A stretch of DNA of 64,000 bases from Pycnococcus provasolii (Eukaryota > Chlorophyta > Pseudoscourfieldiophyceae > Pseudoscourfieldiales > Pycnococcaceae): NCBI GenBank assembly GCA_938743325.2, contig OW568900.1, positions 248,001-312,000 of the forward strand, written 5' to 3'. The notes below the pieces were generated by a model that saw only the letters and a program-made list of their open reading frames with translations, was not told where the DNA came from and searched no databases. The position numbers were made by a program, and so were the translations under genes. Numbering within the stretch: position 1 is the stretch's first letter; each line of letters begins with the position of its first letter. Positions 8,222 through 18,009 of the stretch are shown here, piece by piece.

Positions 8222-8885
8222 GATATGCTTGCCTGCTTGCGTGATTCTATATATTGATCGACTCCAAGTAGGCTCACAAATCACAAGAGCGACCACAAAC
8301 AAGACCAAGAGCGACCACAAACAAGAAACACCAGTTTGTAGTTTGAGATGAGTGCACGAGATCTCCTGAGATACAAGAAACACTCACGAGCTCAACAAGC
8401 TCACTCACCTATAAGCACCACTGGTCAAGGCAAGATCAAAGACACAGGAGCTGATCCACCAACAGGGAGCAGATCCAGCGCTGGGATCCAGCCGTAGGGT
8501 AGGATGAAGATGAAGATGAAGTTGGGACCACCAAGATGAAGATGGCCACGAGCTCCGAAGCCACACACCACAGAGAAAATAATAAAAATACGAGTTGGAA
8601 AAACCTGAAAACGGGTTTTCTTAAACGGGGAGGGACGCGTGGTCCATGAATTTACTCTAGTGGATGGACAACGACGGATCCCCGAAGAGAAACACCGTCC
8701 AGGAGGGACTCCAGGGGGCCAGGCCTGCCAGGGGGGAGGAGTCTCGAGGACACCTCCGAAACCCTACGATAACCCTAGTGGCCCCTAACCAACTGTAACC
8801 CTAACCCTAACCCTAGGAAGTAGCCCTAACCAAACCCTAACCCCAAAAGGAAGTAGCCCTGACCAAACCCTAACCTAACGGCGAG
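8222..8885. repeat. 5' intergenic region with CCCTAA-type array, left flank of transposon
   Basis: Upstream region of the hydroxylase gene. The distal part (about 8790-8878) is a degenerate CCCTAACC array containing two copies of a GGAAGTAGCCCTRACC unit. The last seven bases, CGGCGAG at 8879-8885, are repeated after the right end of the adjoining transposon. Confidence 0.8.
8879..8885. repeat. Target site duplication, left copy (CGGCGAG)
   Basis: Identical to 16408-16414 immediately beyond the opposite terminal inverted repeat. Length 7 bp. Confidence 0.85.
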
Positions 8886-8973
8886 CAAGGGCATATTAAT
8901 CCGTGGGCAGGTCACTCACGACTTCCCCGTTGAAGCCTCACTTGACAACAGGGGTTTGGCGATTTCTGTTTTT
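8886..8973 (+). repeat. Left terminal inverted repeat of P-like transposon
   Basis: 88 bp, perfect reverse complement of 16320-16407. Identity ends at the inner T run, where the left copy continues CGGG and the right copy does not. Confidence 0.95.
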
Positions 8974-9272
8974 CGGGTTTATTGTTTCTCTGGCTCGGAC
9001 ATTCTCCTCCGACAATGGCGGGTCAACAGGTGCGTTGCTCTTACATTTCTCAGGGTTGTGAACAATCTGTTCAGTGAAAGAGCAATTCCGTCTAACAGAA
9101 ATGTCTGTACCTGTGTGTTGAACACGCGTGCAAAGTTTGGGCGAGGGTTTATTGACAGTTTTTTTTTTTTTTTATCTAACATAAACTCATCCACACACGA
9201 CAACTTACACATAGAACCTTGATAAAGCTGCGAAGGAAAAAAAATGTGTAAAACGTACAAGGGTTGTGGCGA

Positions 9273-9433
9273 ACATGGCAAAAGCGAGGGCAGCCTTAGG
9301 AAGCGGCCGTTCGAATGAAGCGGCCGCAGTTGACCGTTCCGTAAAGAAGTCGTGCTCTGGGTTCACGGAGGCAGACTTTAAAACGGATGTGTCGTGGCGC
9401 ATGATGGTGGGTGGCGTGGCGGTGTTGAGGTGA
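9273..9433 (+). other. Candidate first exon of the transposase
   Basis: A short ATG frame of 52 residues beginning MAKARAALGSG and containing SGFTEADFKTDVSWRMM. It lies inside the left arm of the transposon and ends at an AG/GTGAGG that could act as a splice donor. P-type transposases are commonly spliced and the transposase frame at 12030 lacks an obvious DNA-binding N-terminus, so this may be its first exon. No acceptor is demonstrated. Confidence 0.25.
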
Positions 9434-9629
9434 GGAGAAGAGATGTGTTTGGGGTTTAAGGAGAGGAGAGGAGGCGATAGGAGATGGTGTTTTGGTTTCC
9501 CCCAACCCCAAGGGCTTTTGCCTGGCGAAGGTTGGTTGAGGTTTGGGACCCTCCCCCAAGGTGTCGGGAGTTTGTTAGCAAAGGGACCGTTAGGTGGGGG
9601 GTTGGGTGTTGCCCTCCCCTTGGAGTGGG

Positions 9630-9881
9630 ACGACCGACTTTAGTTGTCGACGCGTTTTTTGTGTACGTCTGTGGCGTACGCTGACGACAAGGTGTGGTGT
9701 GGTGTTGGTGTTTACTTGTTACAGAACTTCTTGACTCTACTTGGCTTGGTGAACACACACGTGGTACAGGTGGTGCCTTAAGTTGTGGTGTGGCTGACGG
9801 AGAAAACAAAGGAGATCTAAGGCGAGTTGAGGTGCGGTGGTGGAGGTGGCGTGGTGCCGTGGCGAGGTTTTAGAAGTAAGT
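9630..9881 (+). repeat. Direct repeat, 5' copy (LTR-like)
   Basis: 252 bp, identical to 11778-12029, offset 2,148 bp. Ends TAGAAGTAAGT. Does not show canonical TG...CA ends. Confidence 0.9.
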
Positions 9882-9954
9882 TACACAAAAAACGAGACGG
9901 TGAGGAGTTTGGAGTGGTGACGTGAGGTGAAGGTGAAAACAGGTGAGTGAGGGA

Positions 9955-10420
9955 GTCCAACGTCAGCGTGAGATTCCAAACATCAGGGTGAGATTCCAAA
10001 CATCAGTGAGCGTGGGATTCCAAACATCAGCAGCGAACGTGGGATTCCAAAGGCGTGGATCGCAAGCAGCAGGTGAGCACGGATCGCAAGCACTAGGTGA
10101 ACGTGGATCGCGGCTTAAGGCGAGGGAAGTAGCGTAGCAGTTGAGGGTGAACCCAGCAAGCAAGCGGGAGATTCCAAACATCAGTGAGCTTGGGATTCCA
10201 AACATCAGCAGTGAGGGTGGGATTCCAAAGGCGTGGATCGCAAGCAGCAGGTGAGCACGGTTCGCGAGCACTGGGTGAACGTGGATCGCGGCTTAAGGCG
10301 AGCGAAGCAGAACAACACGTGAGTGTGGGATTCCAACATCAGGGTGAGATTCCAAACGCGTGGATCCCAAGCAGCAGGTGAGCACGGATCCCAAGCAGCA
10401 GACAACGCGGATCGCAGGCA
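9955..10420 (+). repeat. Tandem repeats with a 178-bp period
   Basis: About two and a half diverged copies with a 178-bp period (compare 9991 with 10169). Each copy contains GATTCCAAACATCAG two or three times, then GGCGTGGATCGCAAGCAGCAGGTGAGCACGG and GTGAACGTGGATCGCGGCTTAAGGCGAG-type segments. The repeats run into the gag-like coding part of the nested element. Confidence 0.85.
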
Positions 10421-11777
10421 TCAGCGGACGAGAAGCCCAGCGTCAGCAAGCGCAGGCGGACACGATTCAGCGGTTGCGCGCCCTACGTAGGGCAGCGGCA
10501 GTAGTCACACGGAGTGCAGCGAACGTGCCAACAAGCGCAAACGGAGACGAGGAGCAGCAGACGGCTGAGGCAACGGAGGGCGAACGAGACGTCATGCAAG
10601 CGGTCGAGAGCGAAATGGCGGGCGAAGGGTCGGCGTCAGGAGGGCGACTACAACCGCTCACAGGAGTGGAGCCAGCGGTGGACGTCGTACGCTGGCTGGC
10701 CCACTTTCAGCAGATGTACCAGGGCAAGGTATACAACGCTACATACCACACGGTGACAGCGTTGTGGCGGGCTGCGCAGTAGCCCAACTCACTTCACCTT
10801 AAGGCCGCCAGGCTTAAGGGAAGGTAAGGATAAGTAGAGAATGGTTACAGGATAGGAAAAATATTAAAAGCCTTATCCTGGTCCCCTCTAGGGGTTATCT
10901 GTTCCCAGGGGAGCGTATTAGGGGTTATCCCCACACACCACCCACGCGTCGTGGGAACAGCGCAAAAAGTCGTCAAAAGGACGTGAGGGACGCGTTCGCG
11001 AAACATCAGGAGCTGCACAAATACCTCAAGGAGTGGATGGCGAGCGACTCAACGTACATGGACACGGTGAATACCTACGACGAGGCGTACCTGAACCTGA
11101 ACAAGGCGGCGTTACGGCCGCAGAAGGTAAAGGATATCCTCACGCTGAATGCGACACGGGTTCAAGACGAGGCAGACCACCCAGAGTTATTTCCGGTGGC
11201 GGCGTTAACCAAGATCCTGTCAGTACGGCAAGCGCTCGCCATTGGGCTGGTAAGGGAGATCATTGATCAAGCCCAGAAGAAGTGGAACCGTCTGAAGCGC
11301 AGCACGTCGGCGACAGCATCAGTGACTGGTCAATCCTCAGCGGGCGAAGGCACACCGTACCAGATGGTGAAGCAGCTGCAAAGCGCGGTGAAGACACGGT
11401 TCGGAGATGCCACATGGGAGGCGGCACCATGCGTGCTACACCCGGGAGGACGCCATACAAATGGCCATTGCACGGTGCACAAGCAGGTGCACGCACTAAA
11501 CACCGTCGGCAGAGGCGTCACCACATCGACAGCCAGGGTTGTGGCGACAGGAAGCGTAGAACCATTCGTGGCGGCGGCGGGAGCGCCGGCAGCAGGTGGT
11601 AGGTGGCAACCGCCAGGCGACGGGAAGCCAGGTGCTGGAACTGGCGACCGCTACGAGCGGATTACGGGGTCCGTACCCAAGCCGGGCGATTGGGAGTGCG
11701 CTGTGCCAGGATGCAGGGCGAAGGGGCAACGCGCCAACTTTGCAAGCAAAACGTCTTGCTACGCATGTGGCACAGCC

Positions 11778-12029
11778 ACGACCGACTTTAGTTGTCGACG
11801 CGTTTTTTGTGTACGTCTGTGGCGTACGCTGACGACAAGGTGTGGTGTGGTGTTGGTGTTTACTTGTTACAGAACTTCTTGACTCTACTTGGCTTGGTGA
11901 ACACACACGTGGTACAGGTGGTGCCTTAAGTTGTGGTGTGGCTGACGGAGAAAACAAAGGAGATCTAAGGCGAGTTGAGGTGCGGTGGTGGAGGTGGCGT
12001 GGTGCCGTGGCGAGGTTTTAGAAGTAAGT
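11778..12029 (+). repeat. Direct repeat, 3' copy (LTR-like)
   Basis: 252 bp, identical to 9630-9881. The first ATG of the transposase frame follows directly at 12030. Confidence 0.9.
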
Positions 12030-14189
12030 ATGCAGGTGGCACAGTGCCGTGCCCAGGGCAGCGTGACAGATGACATGAAAAAGGCGTTTCGACATCACTG
12101 CGTTGCTATTGTCAGCGACCACATTTGGGCATTTGCAGAGGGCGGAGGGCTTTGGGGAACGCAGAGTGGAGATTGGATCGTCGGGCGAACGGACGAAGGT
12201 GCTATTAAGTTGTCCACGTGTACAGCGGGCACGCTTTGCGCGTCCGGTGGGACACGTTGTATGGCATGCTCATCTAAAAGAGCCACCTTGCACAACTCGG
12301 TGACGCGCTTGGCTGGCCATTTGACAAATGGGCCGCCTGCAAATATGGCGCACAACGCCATACTTAGGAATAAAATCTTGAGTGGGTCACTACTTGACAC
12401 GCTAAGAAGACGGCGGAGAACTTCACAGCAACGTTTGAGACGAGAGAATTGCAGGAGATACAGAACCTCCACCGGCGTTCCAATTACCATGACACACGAG
12501 CTATACGACATGGCGACGTCTTGCACACCATTCTTCAAAGAATATTTCAAGGGAGAACCAGATATATTATCGGTCTGGACAGAGTTCATGTTAAATATGG
12601 GTAAACCTGGACAATCCATAAGGTGGAGCGAGGAGCTTATGGACGTAATTCTCTTGCTGTCGGGCGACAAGCACTACAACGTCTGGAGGAAACTTATGCC
12701 GTGGCTACCATCTCCAGAAACTAACAAACGTCGCAAAAGAGCTCGGGTCGGCGGGATGGAACAACATAGAACTGGCGTCCTTCAAAATGTCGTTGACAAT
12801 ATGAAGAGCTTAGCTGATGGATTGCATGGTCGGTATCGCAAATTTGGTTTGGCGTTCGACGATATGGTGATCAGAGGTAGCTTTTGCTTCCATAGTGGAA
12901 CTGGTAAGTTCGTTGGCTTAGCGAACGAAAAATCCCCCGGCTGCATTATGAGCGCGTTTCGCTCGTATTGCAGCCGGGCGGTTGAGCCGGCGGACACGGC
13001 TTCTAACCTGGGTGACGACAACCTTCCCGAGTTAGCTACGAGACACATGGTTGTGTACGCTACACAAACATGTGCGCGAGTGGGTGAGAAGCCGATGTCA
13101 TTTCTGGTTGCAAAGATCAATGTAGCGACATTGACTGCGAACGACGTCTATGAGATGTGTCATGGAGTTGTCCTTCAGATGGCGATGAGAGGATTCGACT
13201 GTGTATCTATTGTTTGCGATGGGGCAGCTGAAAATAGGGCGGCGTTTAATGCGCTTGCGACTATGGCATGTGGAGACTTCATTCCGCACGACGAGTTGAA
13301 GAAAAGAGGACTTGATAAACTAATATCCTTCAAAATTGCCATGCAGCACCCAGTATTCGATACGCCAATATTTCTGCTCGGCGATATGCCTCATATCGTC
13401 AAGAAAATTAGAGGAGCCATGGACTCTTCAACGAGGTGTCTCAAATACAAGAATTGTGGGATCTCTCTTCAATTGGTACGCCAGGTATGGATGGAACATG
13501 ACCCTACTGCAAATGATTTGACATCCATTCGACAAACAAGACTAAGTCACGATTGCTTCGATTTAAATAATGCAAGTCGCATGCGTGTTGGACCAGCTAT
13601 GCGAGTTTTATCGAACACTGTGGTTACTATGTGCGATGGCTTAATCAACAAAGATCCTGCGAAGTGGAAATTTCTTTGGGGACTACGTCATTTGAGCTTT
13701 CAGGTCAATCGGCTTGTAGATATATGCAATTCGAAAAACGGCGTCATGAACTCCAGCAACGACGCACGACTTGGCAATCTGTTAGACGTCCAAAAGTTTT
13801 TTCACGATTGGAAAGAGAGTGCAAAATTTGTGGAGTTCATCACCCCTGAGTGCTTCACCGATTTGACCTACTTAATTCTTGGTATGGTTTGTATAGGTAA
13901 GTTTCATCTACCCGTACATGGCTCAGATGGTATGCATGCTATTTGCTTTAGAAGAATCACAAACCAAGACAGAGTAGAGAACCATTTCAATAATGGAAGA
14001 TATGGAAGCTCCTCAGGAGGAGGTAGTGCCCCAAGAGCGGATCAAATGAACATGGCAGCTGCACGAGCAAACACCGTACGTCTGTCAATGTATAAGTTGG
14101 CGAGACGCGGAAACTGCGAGAAAGAGTCGCAAGCGAGCTGTGACGCCGTACTTCACTTGACTCCACCACCGCCGCCGCCACCTCGCTGA
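12030..14189 (+). CDS. P-element/THAP9-type transposase
   Basis: 719 residues from the ATG at 12030; the frame is also open upstream into the direct repeat but without ATG, so the natural N-terminus may be missing. An RWSEELMDVILLLSGDKHYNVWRK segment corresponds to the helix preceding the catalytic core in THAP9-like proteins. Core blocks in order: LAFDDMVIRG (first catalytic Asp), IVCDGAAENRAAF (second Asp), LLGDMPHIVKKIRGAM (the characteristic D-x-PH-x-hK block), and RITNQDRVENHFNNGR (QD..E, candidate third acid). These match P/THAP9 RNase-H-like transposases in order and spacing. No C2CH THAP zinc finger is visible. The frame ends in poly-Pro. The core shows no internal stop, so it may still be functional. 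Confidence 0.82.
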   Translation: MQVAQCRAQGSVTDDMKKAFRHHCVAIVSDHIWAFAEGGGLWGTQSGDWIVGRTDEGAIKLSTCTAGTLCASGGTRCMACSSKRATLHNSVTRLAGHLTNGPPANMAHNAILRNKILSGSLLDTLRRRRRTSQQRLRRENCRRYRTSTGVPITMTHELYDMATSCTPFFKEYFKGEPDILSVWTEFMLNMGKPGQSIRWSEELMDVILLLSGDKHYNVWRKLMPWLPSPETNKRRKRARVGGMEQHRTGVLQNVVDNMKSLADGLHGRYRKFGLAFDDMVIRGSFCFHSGTGKFVGLANEKSPGCIMSAFRSYCSRAVEPADTASNLGDDNLPELATRHMVVYATQTCARVGEKPMSFLVAKINVATLTANDVYEMCHGVVLQMAMRGFDCVSIVCDGAAENRAAFNALATMACGDFIPHDELKKRGLDKLISFKIAMQHPVFDTPIFLLGDMPHIVKKIRGAMDSSTRCLKYKNCGISLQLVRQVWMEHDPTANDLTSIRQTRLSHDCFDLNNASRMRVGPAMRVLSNTVVTMCDGLINKDPAKWKFLWGLRHLSFQVNRLVDICNSKNGVMNSSNDARLGNLLDVQKFFHDWKESAKFVEFITPECFTDLTYLILGMVCIGKFHLPVHGSDGMHAICFRRITNQDRVENHFNNGRYGSSSGGGSAPRADQMNMAAARANTVRLSMYKLARRGNCEKESQASCDAVLHLTPPPPPPPR

Positions 14190-14260
14190 CGGACCGGGGT
14201 TTAGTCACAGTAACGCAACAATGCGTTCTTTACAATCCTCTTTACAATTCTTTTCTCCTA

Positions 14261-15814
14261 TCAAGCATCAGGCGGAACGTCCTCTTCTGAATCGTCGTGC
14301 TCGCTATCGGAATCGCTTATCGCGTCGTCGTCCACTTGCTCACAGAGCGCATCGATCGCATCTTCGTTCACTTTCACGGTGGGATCGTCGACACCTGTTA
14401 TGGTCCGTGTTTCATCTGGGCGTCGTCCTTCTTTGTCACGAGCACTGTCAGAGCGCGCGCGTTGTGACGCTCCTGCCACCTTTTGCCGCGTTGCGCACGA
14501 CTCATCGTGGTCGGCAGATCTGCGGTAATGTGCGCGCAATTGCTGAGTGAAGTCGTTCCCTCTCAAGTTCATGAAACGGTTCACAGTCCGGGCGAGCATT
14601 GCTGAGCCTTGCGACTTGCACTCCTCCTCAGATAATTTGTCGTCATCTTCGAGTTCTTTCAGTTCACTCTCTAGTTCGTGTGGGTCCGGAACTGGCGGAA
14701 CATCCTTATATGGTTCCCGTGCAAGTTTGCTTGTCTCAATGAATGTCGCGTCGAAAAGTGCGCAGCACTCCTCATCCTCGCAGATCTGTTTTTTGAGCAT
14801 GAGGAACGCGTCACCGCCACCAAACAAGAGTCTGCGCGAACGCAACGCGCGCATGATAATCACCTCCAGTCTCCGAACAAAATCGAAAAGAGCTGACGAC
14901 GCGAAGACCAAGCCGTTCACATTGCGAGCGCGTTGGAGTGTTGCCTGAATTGGCAAACGCAAGTGACGAGCTTCCGTAGCAGTGAACCAATTCTTCACCG
15001 TCCAAACAAACGAGAAAGTGTTCTTATTCCTGGTCCCGTATTTCCGCTCTTTCGAGACAAGCCAACCACAGATATAGTACAGGACACTGTCGTTAGCTAA
15101 GTGTGCATTCAGAGTTTCGTCATCGGACATGTTGAATGTGTCCATCGTCGTCCACATAGCCGAACTCCACGCAGCGTAGAGCTCGTCATCCAGGACGACA
15201 GCAAATAATGCACCTTGTGGCAGTTTGACCGCGTGTGATATCTCTTCCTTGAAGACAATTCGCGAAGCTTGTAGAGACACGGACAACTTCAACGCGTTCT
15301 CGGGAATTTCTTTAAGCGTTGTTGCAGCATGTTTTGCGAGAAGGGTTGCGAACTCACCGAGCCGAGCAGCACACTGATCTCGAACACGAGTTTGCGCAAG
15401 CTCACCGAGTAGTCCGAAATTTTCACTGATGATCTTAGGCACGCTCTTACCAGGCAGAGTCACGCTGAAAAAGGTTGATAGAACATGTCTCTCGTCACTT
15501 CTTTCAATCAGTGTTGTCTTGAAGGAGTCCCTGTCAAGATCAACACGCTCATTCACACTCCGCACCGGGAGCGATTTCGAGATTCTCCATAACCTCAACT
15601 GGTTAGAGACTTGAGGTGTAGACAACTTGTATCTGTCTACTATGTCGTCCAGTGCCTTGTTTTTACGCATGTTGCCGGAGATCCAACCCGGACTACTGGC
15701 GAACAGTGCGTGTAAGTCGGCGATAGCTGCTTGAGTTATTCGCGAACGTCTAGTTCTTGTGAACATAAGAGAAGGTTTTGACGAGCTTGCTCCACATTCT
15801 TCAGCGTGAACCAT
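14261..15814 (-). CDS. Second gene of the P-like transposon, accessory protein
   Basis: 517 residues from the first in-frame ATG at 15814. It converges with the transposase, whose stop is 71 bp away. Residues about 25-70 (LHALFASSPGWISGN ... LSTPQVSNQLRLWR) look like a homeodomain-like helix-turn-helix. A central block LYYICGWLVSK followed by GLVFASSALFDFVRRLEVI resembles the C-terminal Y-x-x-G-(Y/F)-(V/I) and GL..PS..L...V..LE motifs found downstream of the catalytic core in many P/THAP9-type transposases. The C-terminus is acidic (DDDAISDSDSEHDDSEED). The reading is that DNA-binding and C-terminal transposase functions are carried by a separate protein; this is inference. Confidence 0.65.
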   Translation of the reverse strand: MVHAEECGASSSKPSLMFTRTRRSRITQAAIADLHALFASSPGWISGNMRKNKALDDIVDRYKLSTPQVSNQLRLWRISKSLPVRSVNERVDLDRDSFKTTLIERSDERHVLSTFFSVTLPGKSVPKIISENFGLLGELAQTRVRDQCAARLGEFATLLAKHAATTLKEIPENALKLSVSLQASRIVFKEEISHAVKLPQGALFAVVLDDELYAAWSSAMWTTMDTFNMSDDETLNAHLANDSVLYYICGWLVSKERKYGTRNKNTFSFVWTVKNWFTATEARHLRLPIQATLQRARNVNGLVFASSALFDFVRRLEVIIMRALRSRRLLFGGGDAFLMLKKQICEDEECCALFDATFIETSKLAREPYKDVPPVPDPHELESELKELEDDDKLSEEECKSQGSAMLARTVNRFMNLRGNDFTQQLRAHYRRSADHDESCATRQKVAGASQRARSDSARDKEGRRPDETRTITGVDDPTVKVNEDAIDALCEQVDDDAISDSDSEHDDSEEDVPPDA

Positions 15815-16319
15815 CTTGCCACGACGCTGCTGTGAAGGATGCAACCGTCAACGACGTGAAACAGCAACGACGTGAAACGTGAAGTGCTTGCTACCAATGA
15901 CCAGTGATGGCTGGCACAGGTCTCCTGGTGAGTGCAAGCTTACGCACAAGAGTGAGGGAGGCTCACAGCTCACACGCACGAAACGAGAGCAAGAGCAAGA
16001 GAGCAAGCACCGCAAAGAGCGAAGCGAGCGAGGCACCAAGACACAGAGTTGCGACAAGGCCCAGGAAGGTGAATGACGAATTTCTGTGCATGTCCCGGGG
16101 AATCGAGGTGGCACGCGCCAACTGAGCCGATCCGAACCGACTGCTCCTGCCATAGCTATGGACGGAGTTCAGCGCAAGATAAGGTTGTGTTCAAAAACTA
16201 TCCACAGCGATCTTATCTGTCCTATTTGAAACGCACAAGTTCCACAGAGTCCCTTTACTCTCCAGATCCAGCCGAAACCCCTAACTAAAACTCCTAACCC
16301 CGAAAAAGGACGAAAATAA
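15815..16319. other. Right subterminal region of the transposon
   Basis: About 500 bp between the accessory gene start and the right inverted repeat. No gene seen. It contains purine-rich sequence with repeated GAGCAAG/GAGCGA motifs and, near 16275-16300, CCCCTAACTAAAACTCCTAACCCC, a telomere-like stretch. Confidence 0.6.
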
Positions 16320-16407
16320 AAAAACAGAAATCGCCAAACCCCTGTTGTCAAGTGAGGCTTCAACGGGGAAGTCGTGAGTGACCTGCCCACGGATTAATAT
16401 GCCCTTG
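16320..16407 (-). repeat. Right terminal inverted repeat of P-like transposon
   Basis: 88 bp, perfect reverse complement of 8886-8973, ending GGATTAATATGCCCTTG. Followed by the target duplication CGGCGAG at 16408-16414. Confidence 0.95.
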
Positions 16408-16414
16408 CGGCGAG
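16408..16414. repeat. Target site duplication, right copy (CGGCGAG)
   Basis: Identical to 8879-8885. Confidence 0.85.
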
Positions 16415-16686
16415 TTCTCATAGATCTCACTGGTGGTGAGACACAACCAAGGGGGTTTCGCCTCCTCCTCAACCCCTGTTATGTCTTCATAAAATAAATA
16501 TCGCCTGTTCCAACTCCCTTTTGGCTGGTTCTTGCCACTGGAGGAGGAGGCGGAAAAGCCCTAGCCCTTTCGTGGGGCGCTTTTGCCACGGCAGACCCCA
16601 CCGTTGCAACCCTTGTTTGTACAAACAAAAGCTGACAAGCGAACGTGTTCTCGTGAACGCGTCGTCGTCCACGCACGCACACGGTC

Positions 16687-18009
16687 ATGGCTTCGTCCTC
16701 TCTCATGGTGTCGTTTTGTACGAAAACACGCGCTGTCACGAAATGGGCTTTTCCTGCTAACCTTGTCGTGAGAACGTTCATGGTTCATGGAGCTTCGTCT
16801 TCGTCGGCAGCTTCTTCGTCTTCTTCTTCTGCAGTGTGTGCATCTTTACGAGGGCTCATGGCTTCCGCGAGGACGAGCAGCTCTTTTAACAACATGGTCG
16901 TCGCTCGAACGTTCGCAACGCGCATCGAGGTGCCCGCCATGGGGGACAGCATCACCGAAGGAAGCATAGCAACCATCGACAAGCCGGCGGGCTCGCAGGT
17001 GGCGGCGGACGACATCATCGCCCAAATCGAAACGGACAAGGTGACCATCGACGTGCGCGCACCTGAAAGTGGAACCGTCACCGAAATCATGGTCGAGGAG
17101 GGGGACACCGTCACCGTGGGACAGCACGTCGCGACGCTCGAGCCGGGCGACGCGCCGGCGGGCGCAGCCGCGGCACCAGCCACACCCGCCGCATCAGCAC
17201 CTTCCACGCCAGCACCTGCCGCACCGAAGGCGGCGGCGGCGGCGGCGCCCACACCCGCCGCACCTGCCGCACCCGCCGCACCCGCCGCCGCCGATGCCGG
17301 AGCACGCACGGAAACGCGCGTTCCCATGACACGCCTGCGCAAGCGGATAGCGGAGCGGCTCAAGGCGAGCCAGAACACGAACGCTCTGCTCACGACGTAC
17401 AACGAGGTGGACATGAGCAACCTCATGGACCTGCGTAACCAGTTCAAGGACGCCTTCCTCGAAAAGCACGGCGCGAAGCTCGGATTCATGTCAGCATTCG
17501 TGAAGGCGAGCGCCACGGCGCTGAAGGACATCCCGAGCGTCAACGCGACGATCTTCGACAACGAGGAGACGGTGTACTACGACTACGTTGACATCTCCGT
17601 TGCGGTGGGAACTCCCAAGGGACTCGTCACGCCCGTGCTGCGTGACGTGCAAACTATGAACTTTGCGGACATCGAGAAGGAGATTGCTTCGCTGGGAAAG
17701 CAGGCGCGAGACGGCACGCTCGCGATTGACCAGCTCGCGGGAGGCACGTTCACCATCTCGAACGGCGGCGTGTACGGCAGCCTTCTGTCGAGTCCCATCG
17801 TGAATCCTCCTCAGAGCGCGATTTTGGGCATGCACGGCATTCAGAAGCGCCCGGTGGTTGGTCCGAACGACAGCATCGTCGTGCGTCCGATGATGTACAT
17901 CGCGCTGACGTACGACCACCGGCTGATTGACGGCCGTGAGGCGGTGACATTCTTGCGTCGCATCAAGGACATCGTCGAGAACCCGGTGCGTTTGGTGCTT
18001 GACCTGTGA
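16687..18009 (+). CDS. DLST: Dihydrolipoamide succinyltransferase, E2 of 2-oxoglutarate dehydrogenase (mitochondrial)
   Basis: 440 residues. The first about 75 are Ser/Arg/Ala-rich with no acids, typical of a mitochondrial presequence. A single lipoyl domain follows ([13 protein letters not shown]; lipoylated Lys 118 in ETDKV). Next is an Ala/Pro linker (about 150-210) and the acyltransferase domain from [15 protein letters not shown] to the end. Catalytic residues His411 and Asp415 are in [11 protein letters not shown]. There is no peripheral-subunit-binding domain between linker and catalytic domain, as is usual for eukaryotic DLST, which favours the succinyltransferase over pyruvate dehydrogenase E2. 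It transfers the succinyl group from lipoate to CoA in the TCA cycle. The upstream region was split by the transposon insertion. It is convergent with the RCC1-like gene, 88 bp apart. Confidence 0.93.

Follow-up and report, generated by a model that had tools for sequence, protein, structure and literature searches.

A P-superfamily transposon of Pycnococcus provasolii whose transposase is probably divided between two convergent genes

P transposase works by an unusual GTP-dependent mechanism, in which its C-terminal domain (CTD) lies between two subunits and touches the target as well as the looped strand of the transposon (PMC7776569). The same account describes the protein of the Drosophila P element as a single 87-kDa chain produced by the splicing of four open reading frames (ORFs), with a THAP domain and 8-bp target-site duplications (TSDs), alongside a 66-kDa form that is without the C-terminal third and acts as a repressor (PMC7776569). 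Galileo and 1360 are described as carrying P-type transposases with DDE and D(2)H motifs, Galileo having mostly 7-bp TSDs and a single transposase with a THAP domain, whose catalytic Glu is residue 642 and whose THAP9-like region extends to 884 in the described copy (PMC4168063). THAP9 and zebrafish Pdre2 are presented as single proteins with a THAP domain, followed by a helix-turn-helix (HTH), an RNase H domain with DDE residues and a GTP-binding domain (GBD) insertion, and the CTD, in elements with 13-bp terminal inverted repeats (TIRs) and 8-bp TSDs (PMC10983969). Here we describe an element at positions 8886..16407 of a 64,000-nucleotide stretch of Pycnococcus provasolii DNA (the window; contig OW568900.1, positions 248,001 to 312,000). 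Like the Drosophila P element it has TIRs and short target duplications, and its first gene is homologous to P transposase across the HTH, the RNase H domain and the GTP-binding part. It differs in its 7-bp TSDs, in the lack of a THAP match and in having two genes that converge, the second encoding a protein that has a homeodomain-like HTH and is predicted to supply the CTD.

We consider it likely that this is a cut-and-paste transposon of the P superfamily in which the transposase is divided over the two genes, the product of the second acting in trans with that of the first. The ends of the element are those of the superfamily, with TIRs beginning CA and TSDs within the 7-8 bp range. Identical 88-bp TIRs flanked by a 7-bp duplication had been reported in the initial annotation, and both were found again, with CGGCGAG on either side; the repeats measure 89 nt if the G8885/C16408 pair is counted. 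CAAGGG starts all eight of the ends aligned (two from each of four families, A to D, of which A is that of the window), and 7-bp TSDs flank each of the nine two-ended elements examined, seven by script and two, in the window and on contig C37, by eye.

The first gene has an open frame of 719 amino acids at 12030-14189 of the plus strand. A profile built from the transposases of the four families picked out 6p5a, the structure of the Drosophila P transposase, at E=2e-18, and this establishes homology to the catalytic region of the P element; one other chain was listed, with an E of 1. The Pfam family PF21787 (TNP-like_RNaseH_N) scores 28.2 bits on the window protein, above its curated cut-off of 24.6, and matches all four family members at E<=1, the longer family B protein staying under the cut-off at 21.9 bits. 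PF21788, the GTP-binding insertion, is matched by two of the four members at E<=1 (best 2.9e-5) at scores that do not reach its curated cut-off of 24.8 bits (window 15.2, B 24.5); at the family level the insertion in the RNase H fold is present, the profile alignment to 6p5a spanning this region. The Pfam P-type HTH is matched at E<=1 in one of the four families. D277, D397 and D452-M-P-H455 are invariant across all four in the alignment, and E650, within VENHF, is aligned in A, B and C, giving the D, D, D(2)H, E signature; the corresponding CVENHF of family D lies beyond that family's stop codon. No KDZ-type family was among the five Pfam families matched (E<=1) by the four aligned transposases, an absence that does not disprove a KDZ or Plavaka affinity. 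The protein had been annotated as P/THAP9-like, and of this description the P-superfamily part stands while the THAP part does not: a THAP domain gave no match at E<=1 in the four aligned transposases, in the native family A N-terminus from contig C27 or in the longer B protein. A conserved Cys pattern is found near the N-terminus in its place.

What the first gene lacks is the end of the chain. The catalytic Glu of Drosophila P transposase is residue 531, and its modelled CTD occupies residues 617-734 (the chain range in the structure match). Here the transposase ends 69 (A), 64 (B) or 74 (C) residues past its own catalytic Glu, and none of these three families has a CTD on the chain that carries the RNase H domain. 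A complete single-chain transposase was considered and rejected, as too little of the chain follows the catalytic Glu.

The second gene encodes 517 amino acids, comprising a homeodomain-like HTH, a helical middle, a core with similarity to the P CTD and an acidic tail. That this protein carries the C-terminal part of a P/THAP9-type transposase was proposed from its motifs, and structural modelling supports the proposal: the best match of the modelled family C core among 350,542 PDB chains is the CTD of P transposase, spanning the whole domain and well ahead of the next match for the same model. Together with the ending of the first gene soon after the catalytic Glu, this fold supports the division of the transposase into two converging proteins that the initial annotation had suggested. 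The homeodomain-like HTH is plausible and marginal by sequence. Three of the six chains listed at E<=10 in a comparison of the N-terminus with PDB sequences are POU homeodomains (best E 0.017), and no Pfam match to this segment was found in the four members; the model places helices at residues 28-40, 53-62 and 66-79.

Two caveats apply to the CTD in the second protein: the fold match was made with a moderate-confidence model of the family C protein, and sequence methods did not recover the likeness. An alternative is that the protein is an accessory or regulatory factor outside the catalytic complex, whose helical fold resembles the CTD by coincidence. There are parallels for such a factor. 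MuDR, of another superfamily, is likewise a DNA transposon with two convergent genes, of which mudrA encodes the transposase and mudrB accompanies it, and PIF/Harbinger elements have a Myb-like ORF; mudrB is not known to be a split-off transposase domain. However, coincidence would have to account for a top match, over a whole domain and among so many chains, to the CTD of a family of which the first gene is itself a member, and for a first gene that stops where the CTD would be expected. We regard this explanation as unlikely. Nor does the second protein point to an unrelated family, as no Pfam match exceeds a curated cut-off in its four members; in one of the four, RT_RNaseH matches weakly, the whole protein at E 0.028 (15 bits, where the cut-off is 24.8) and the piece that holds the core at 0.0099, and a weak match to SOG2 has an E of 1.9.

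The two-gene layout is shared by four families, all from one genome (32.3 Mb, 46 contigs). Searching it with the two window proteins identified seven long transposase loci plus fragments: A in the window, B on C3, C31 and C42, C on C20 and C27, and D on C3. Queries with the B and C proteins added short fragments only. These searches scored the best candidates only, and the locus counts are lower bounds. In all seven loci the second gene lies downstream of the transposase on the opposite strand, with 71 (A), 39 (B), 64 (C) or 12 (D) nt from stop to stop, so that the transposase-only copies that would have spoken against a divided transposase did not appear among the full transposases of this genome. 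Five of the places with fragments, on C16, C30, C9, C12 and C37, were inspected; they hold nothing but short or decayed pieces and were not counted as such copies. Both genes are open in families B and C, while in D the transposase has one stop and the second gene no ATG upstream of the HTH. A Pfam family search of the genome listed the B, C and D loci; the window copy was absent from it.

The families are well diverged, their transposases being 25-39% identical to that of the window, whereas copies within a family are 99.6-99.8% alike in B and 99.6% in C. By blastp the closest pairs are A with B and C with D for both the transposase (37% in each pair) and the second protein (31% in each), cross pairs scoring lower; because the pairings agree, the sequences suggest that the two genes share a history. 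Within families, codon changes number 1-3 synonymous and 0-2 nonsynonymous between B pairs and 2 and 0 in C for the transposase, and 1-2 and 1-3 in B and 5 and 4 in C for the second gene, counts too few to demonstrate purifying selection on the latter.

This conservation bears on two further explanations. The second protein might be a CTD-derived repressor or competitor that blocks the CTD site or the element ends, the first gene being sufficient for transposition. Drosophila P elements are reported to yield truncated, repressing transposases, the 66-kDa and KP proteins (PMC7776569), and convergent overlap could conceivably also silence. Against this, 64-74 residues are all that follow the catalytic Glu in the first gene of families A, B and C, no long copy found has a first gene with a CTD of its own to be repressed, and the second gene is kept in all seven long loci, which makes a purely repressive role quite improbable. 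That the second gene came from the host or from some other element, is unrelated to the transposon and was merely caught between its ends, as the foreign insert in the window copy might invite one to think, is contradicted in this genome by its following the transposase, in the same convergent position and with the same closest pairs, across four families, and we reject it as having next to no likelihood.

The families show other peculiarities. On C3 the left TIR of one family B element is interrupted by the family D element (locus L052, 1303-5474), which has its own 7-bp duplication, GTTGAAG. Family B (L054, L055, L052) has in-frame tandem repeats in both genes, and its frames vary in length, at 885 or 925 amino acids and at 681-688 amino acids, in copies that are otherwise 99.6-99.8% identical. 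One of the four aligned transposases has a weak Tudor-like match (PF21743, E 0.025), which from its sequence we take to belong to the family C N-terminus (L056, from 7300 downwards); pieces 94-95% identical to that N-terminus occur at C8:306846 and C12:819053, and weaker matches lie within larger ORFs on C40 and C25.

The features of the window copy are given in Table 1.

Table 1. Features of the window copy and its flanking duplications (positions in the window; residues of the transposase numbered from ATG 12030)
Feature	Position	Strand	Basis or remark
Left 7-bp TSD, CGGCGAG	8879..8885	.	Read from sequence
Left 88-bp TIR, starts CAAGGG	8886..8973	+	Repeat search and end alignment
Native transposase 5' end, ~38 codons from ATG 9275, cut off by insert	9275..9389	+	In-frame continuous version in C27 copy (L009)
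High-copy repeat, 2,679 bp, starts TG, ends CA, GATG-flanked; not P-type transposon proper	9390..12068	+	Repeats, C27 comparison
Transposase remainder: P-type HTH region, RNase H domain, GTP-binding insertion domain	12069..14189	+	Profiles, alignment
Transposase catalytic residues D277, D397, DMPH 452-455, E650; 69 residues beyond E	within 12069..14189	+	
Second gene, 517 amino acids	14261..15814	-	Convergent with transposase
CTD-like core of second protein, residues 201-451, with YYICGWL, LP, R-x-E and RGND motifs	14462..15214	-	Fold match via family C counterpart
Homeodomain-like HTH segment of second protein, residues 17-89	15548..15766	-	Model and sequence comparison
Right 88-bp TIR	16320..16407	-	Repeat search and end alignment
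Right 7-bp TSD, CGGCGAG	16408..16414	.	Read from sequence

The window copy itself is not intact, because a separate repeat of ~2.7 kb breaks its transposase gene after ~38 codons. The initial annotation overlooked this nested insertion; its description of the element as young fits the TIRs, but the transposase gene of this copy is broken. A relative on C27 (L009) is uninterrupted across the insertion site, where GATG stands on both sides of the insert in the window. The apparent start of the plus gene, ATG 12030, falls within the insert, and therefore the first 13 residues of the 719-residue frame are insert-derived and the native start is ATG 9275. The native N-terminus in the C27 copy reads MAKARAALGSGRS...KKSCSGFTEADFKTDDMKKAF, and its family B counterpart has AKARAAL and KSSCSGFTEND.

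The left 492 bp of the insert recur elsewhere with 96-100% identity, seven times complete and three times from base 6 onward. In several places elsewhere, the ~36 bases that end the insert precede this left part by a few bases. The insert holds a 252-bp direct repeat (9630-9881 and 11778-12029) that is not terminal, unlike that of an ordinary long terminal repeat element. A retroelement of the split-repeat or DIRS/Ngaro-like type, or a derivative of one, is a possible identity for the insert. A RanBP-type zinc-finger ORF at 10818-11882 (weak Pfam match, E 0.29) was rejected as part of the transposon, since it sits within the insert; an ORF that reaches up to 852 amino acids, found at 18 near-equal-scoring places, including on C5, C40 and C41, shares ~55% identity with it over part of its length. 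A frame at 16657-18009, which starts ~250 bp beyond the element's right end, is one that we take to resemble the E2 subunit of 2-oxoglutarate dehydrogenase. The ORFs of the window look intron-poor and eukaryotic.

Searching the whole genome with the TIR gave seven matches at four loci: two in the window, two on C27 (221159-222171), two on C37 (208535-209193) and one on C23 (631351-631443), a lone end. The C27 and C37 pairs bound internally deleted elements, one of 1,013 bp flanked by a 7-bp duplication of GGGAATC and one of ~0.66 kb flanked by a 7-bp duplication of CCGAATG. The right end of the C27 element (L009 4160-5172), which belongs to family A, repeats its left end in inverted form, window positions 8886-9084 matching both sides, and this marks it as a fold-back derivative.

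We propose a model for how a divided transposase could operate. The first gene would provide the catalytic subunit, with the P-type HTH, the DDE-bearing RNase H domain and the GTP-binding insertion domain, and the second would provide the CTD, which elsewhere among P transposases forms the end of the catalytic chain, joined to a homeodomain-like HTH of its own. Two or more catalytic subunits would pair the CAAGGG ends. The second protein would hold transposon DNA by its HTH, and its CTD would take up the position known from Drosophila, lodged between one subunit's RNase H domain and a different subunit's GTP-binding domain, from where it would guide both the target DNA and the single-stranded end. 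Cleavage, followed by staggered joining, would then generate the 7-bp duplications. It is plausible that the way in which the CTD is attached permits its detachment without breaking a fold, and that the HTH gives the CTD subunit its own grip on the ends. The first protein alone resembles the 66-kDa Drosophila repressor in domain content, and activity would therefore need the second protein in trans.

The element belongs to the P superfamily, departs from its canonical single-chain THAP/CTD form and has a probable split arrangement that is apparently new. No description of a two-gene or split P transposase was found in the literature titles and abstract openings searched, a weak negative given that most subscription journals, and to our knowledge Repbase Reports, lay outside that scope. 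On balance we favour the view that these elements represent an obligately two-subunit transposase lineage, with convergent genes for two chains, one catalytic (HTH/RNase H/GBD) and one, transcribed separately, that brings the CTD and a DNA-binding domain of its own. On this view the arrangement has been stably inherited across four divergent families, the supply of the CTD perhaps serving as a natural on/off switch. If so, a CTD on a separate protein could be added, withheld or swapped in trans, so that what it contributes to pairing, cleavage and target capture could be examined directly, and it would offer a natural two-component switch for a transposon tool. It would also be an example of how a DDE enzyme can be taken apart and reassembled as a hetero-oligomer in which a new DNA-binding domain takes the place of the THAP finger or is added to it.
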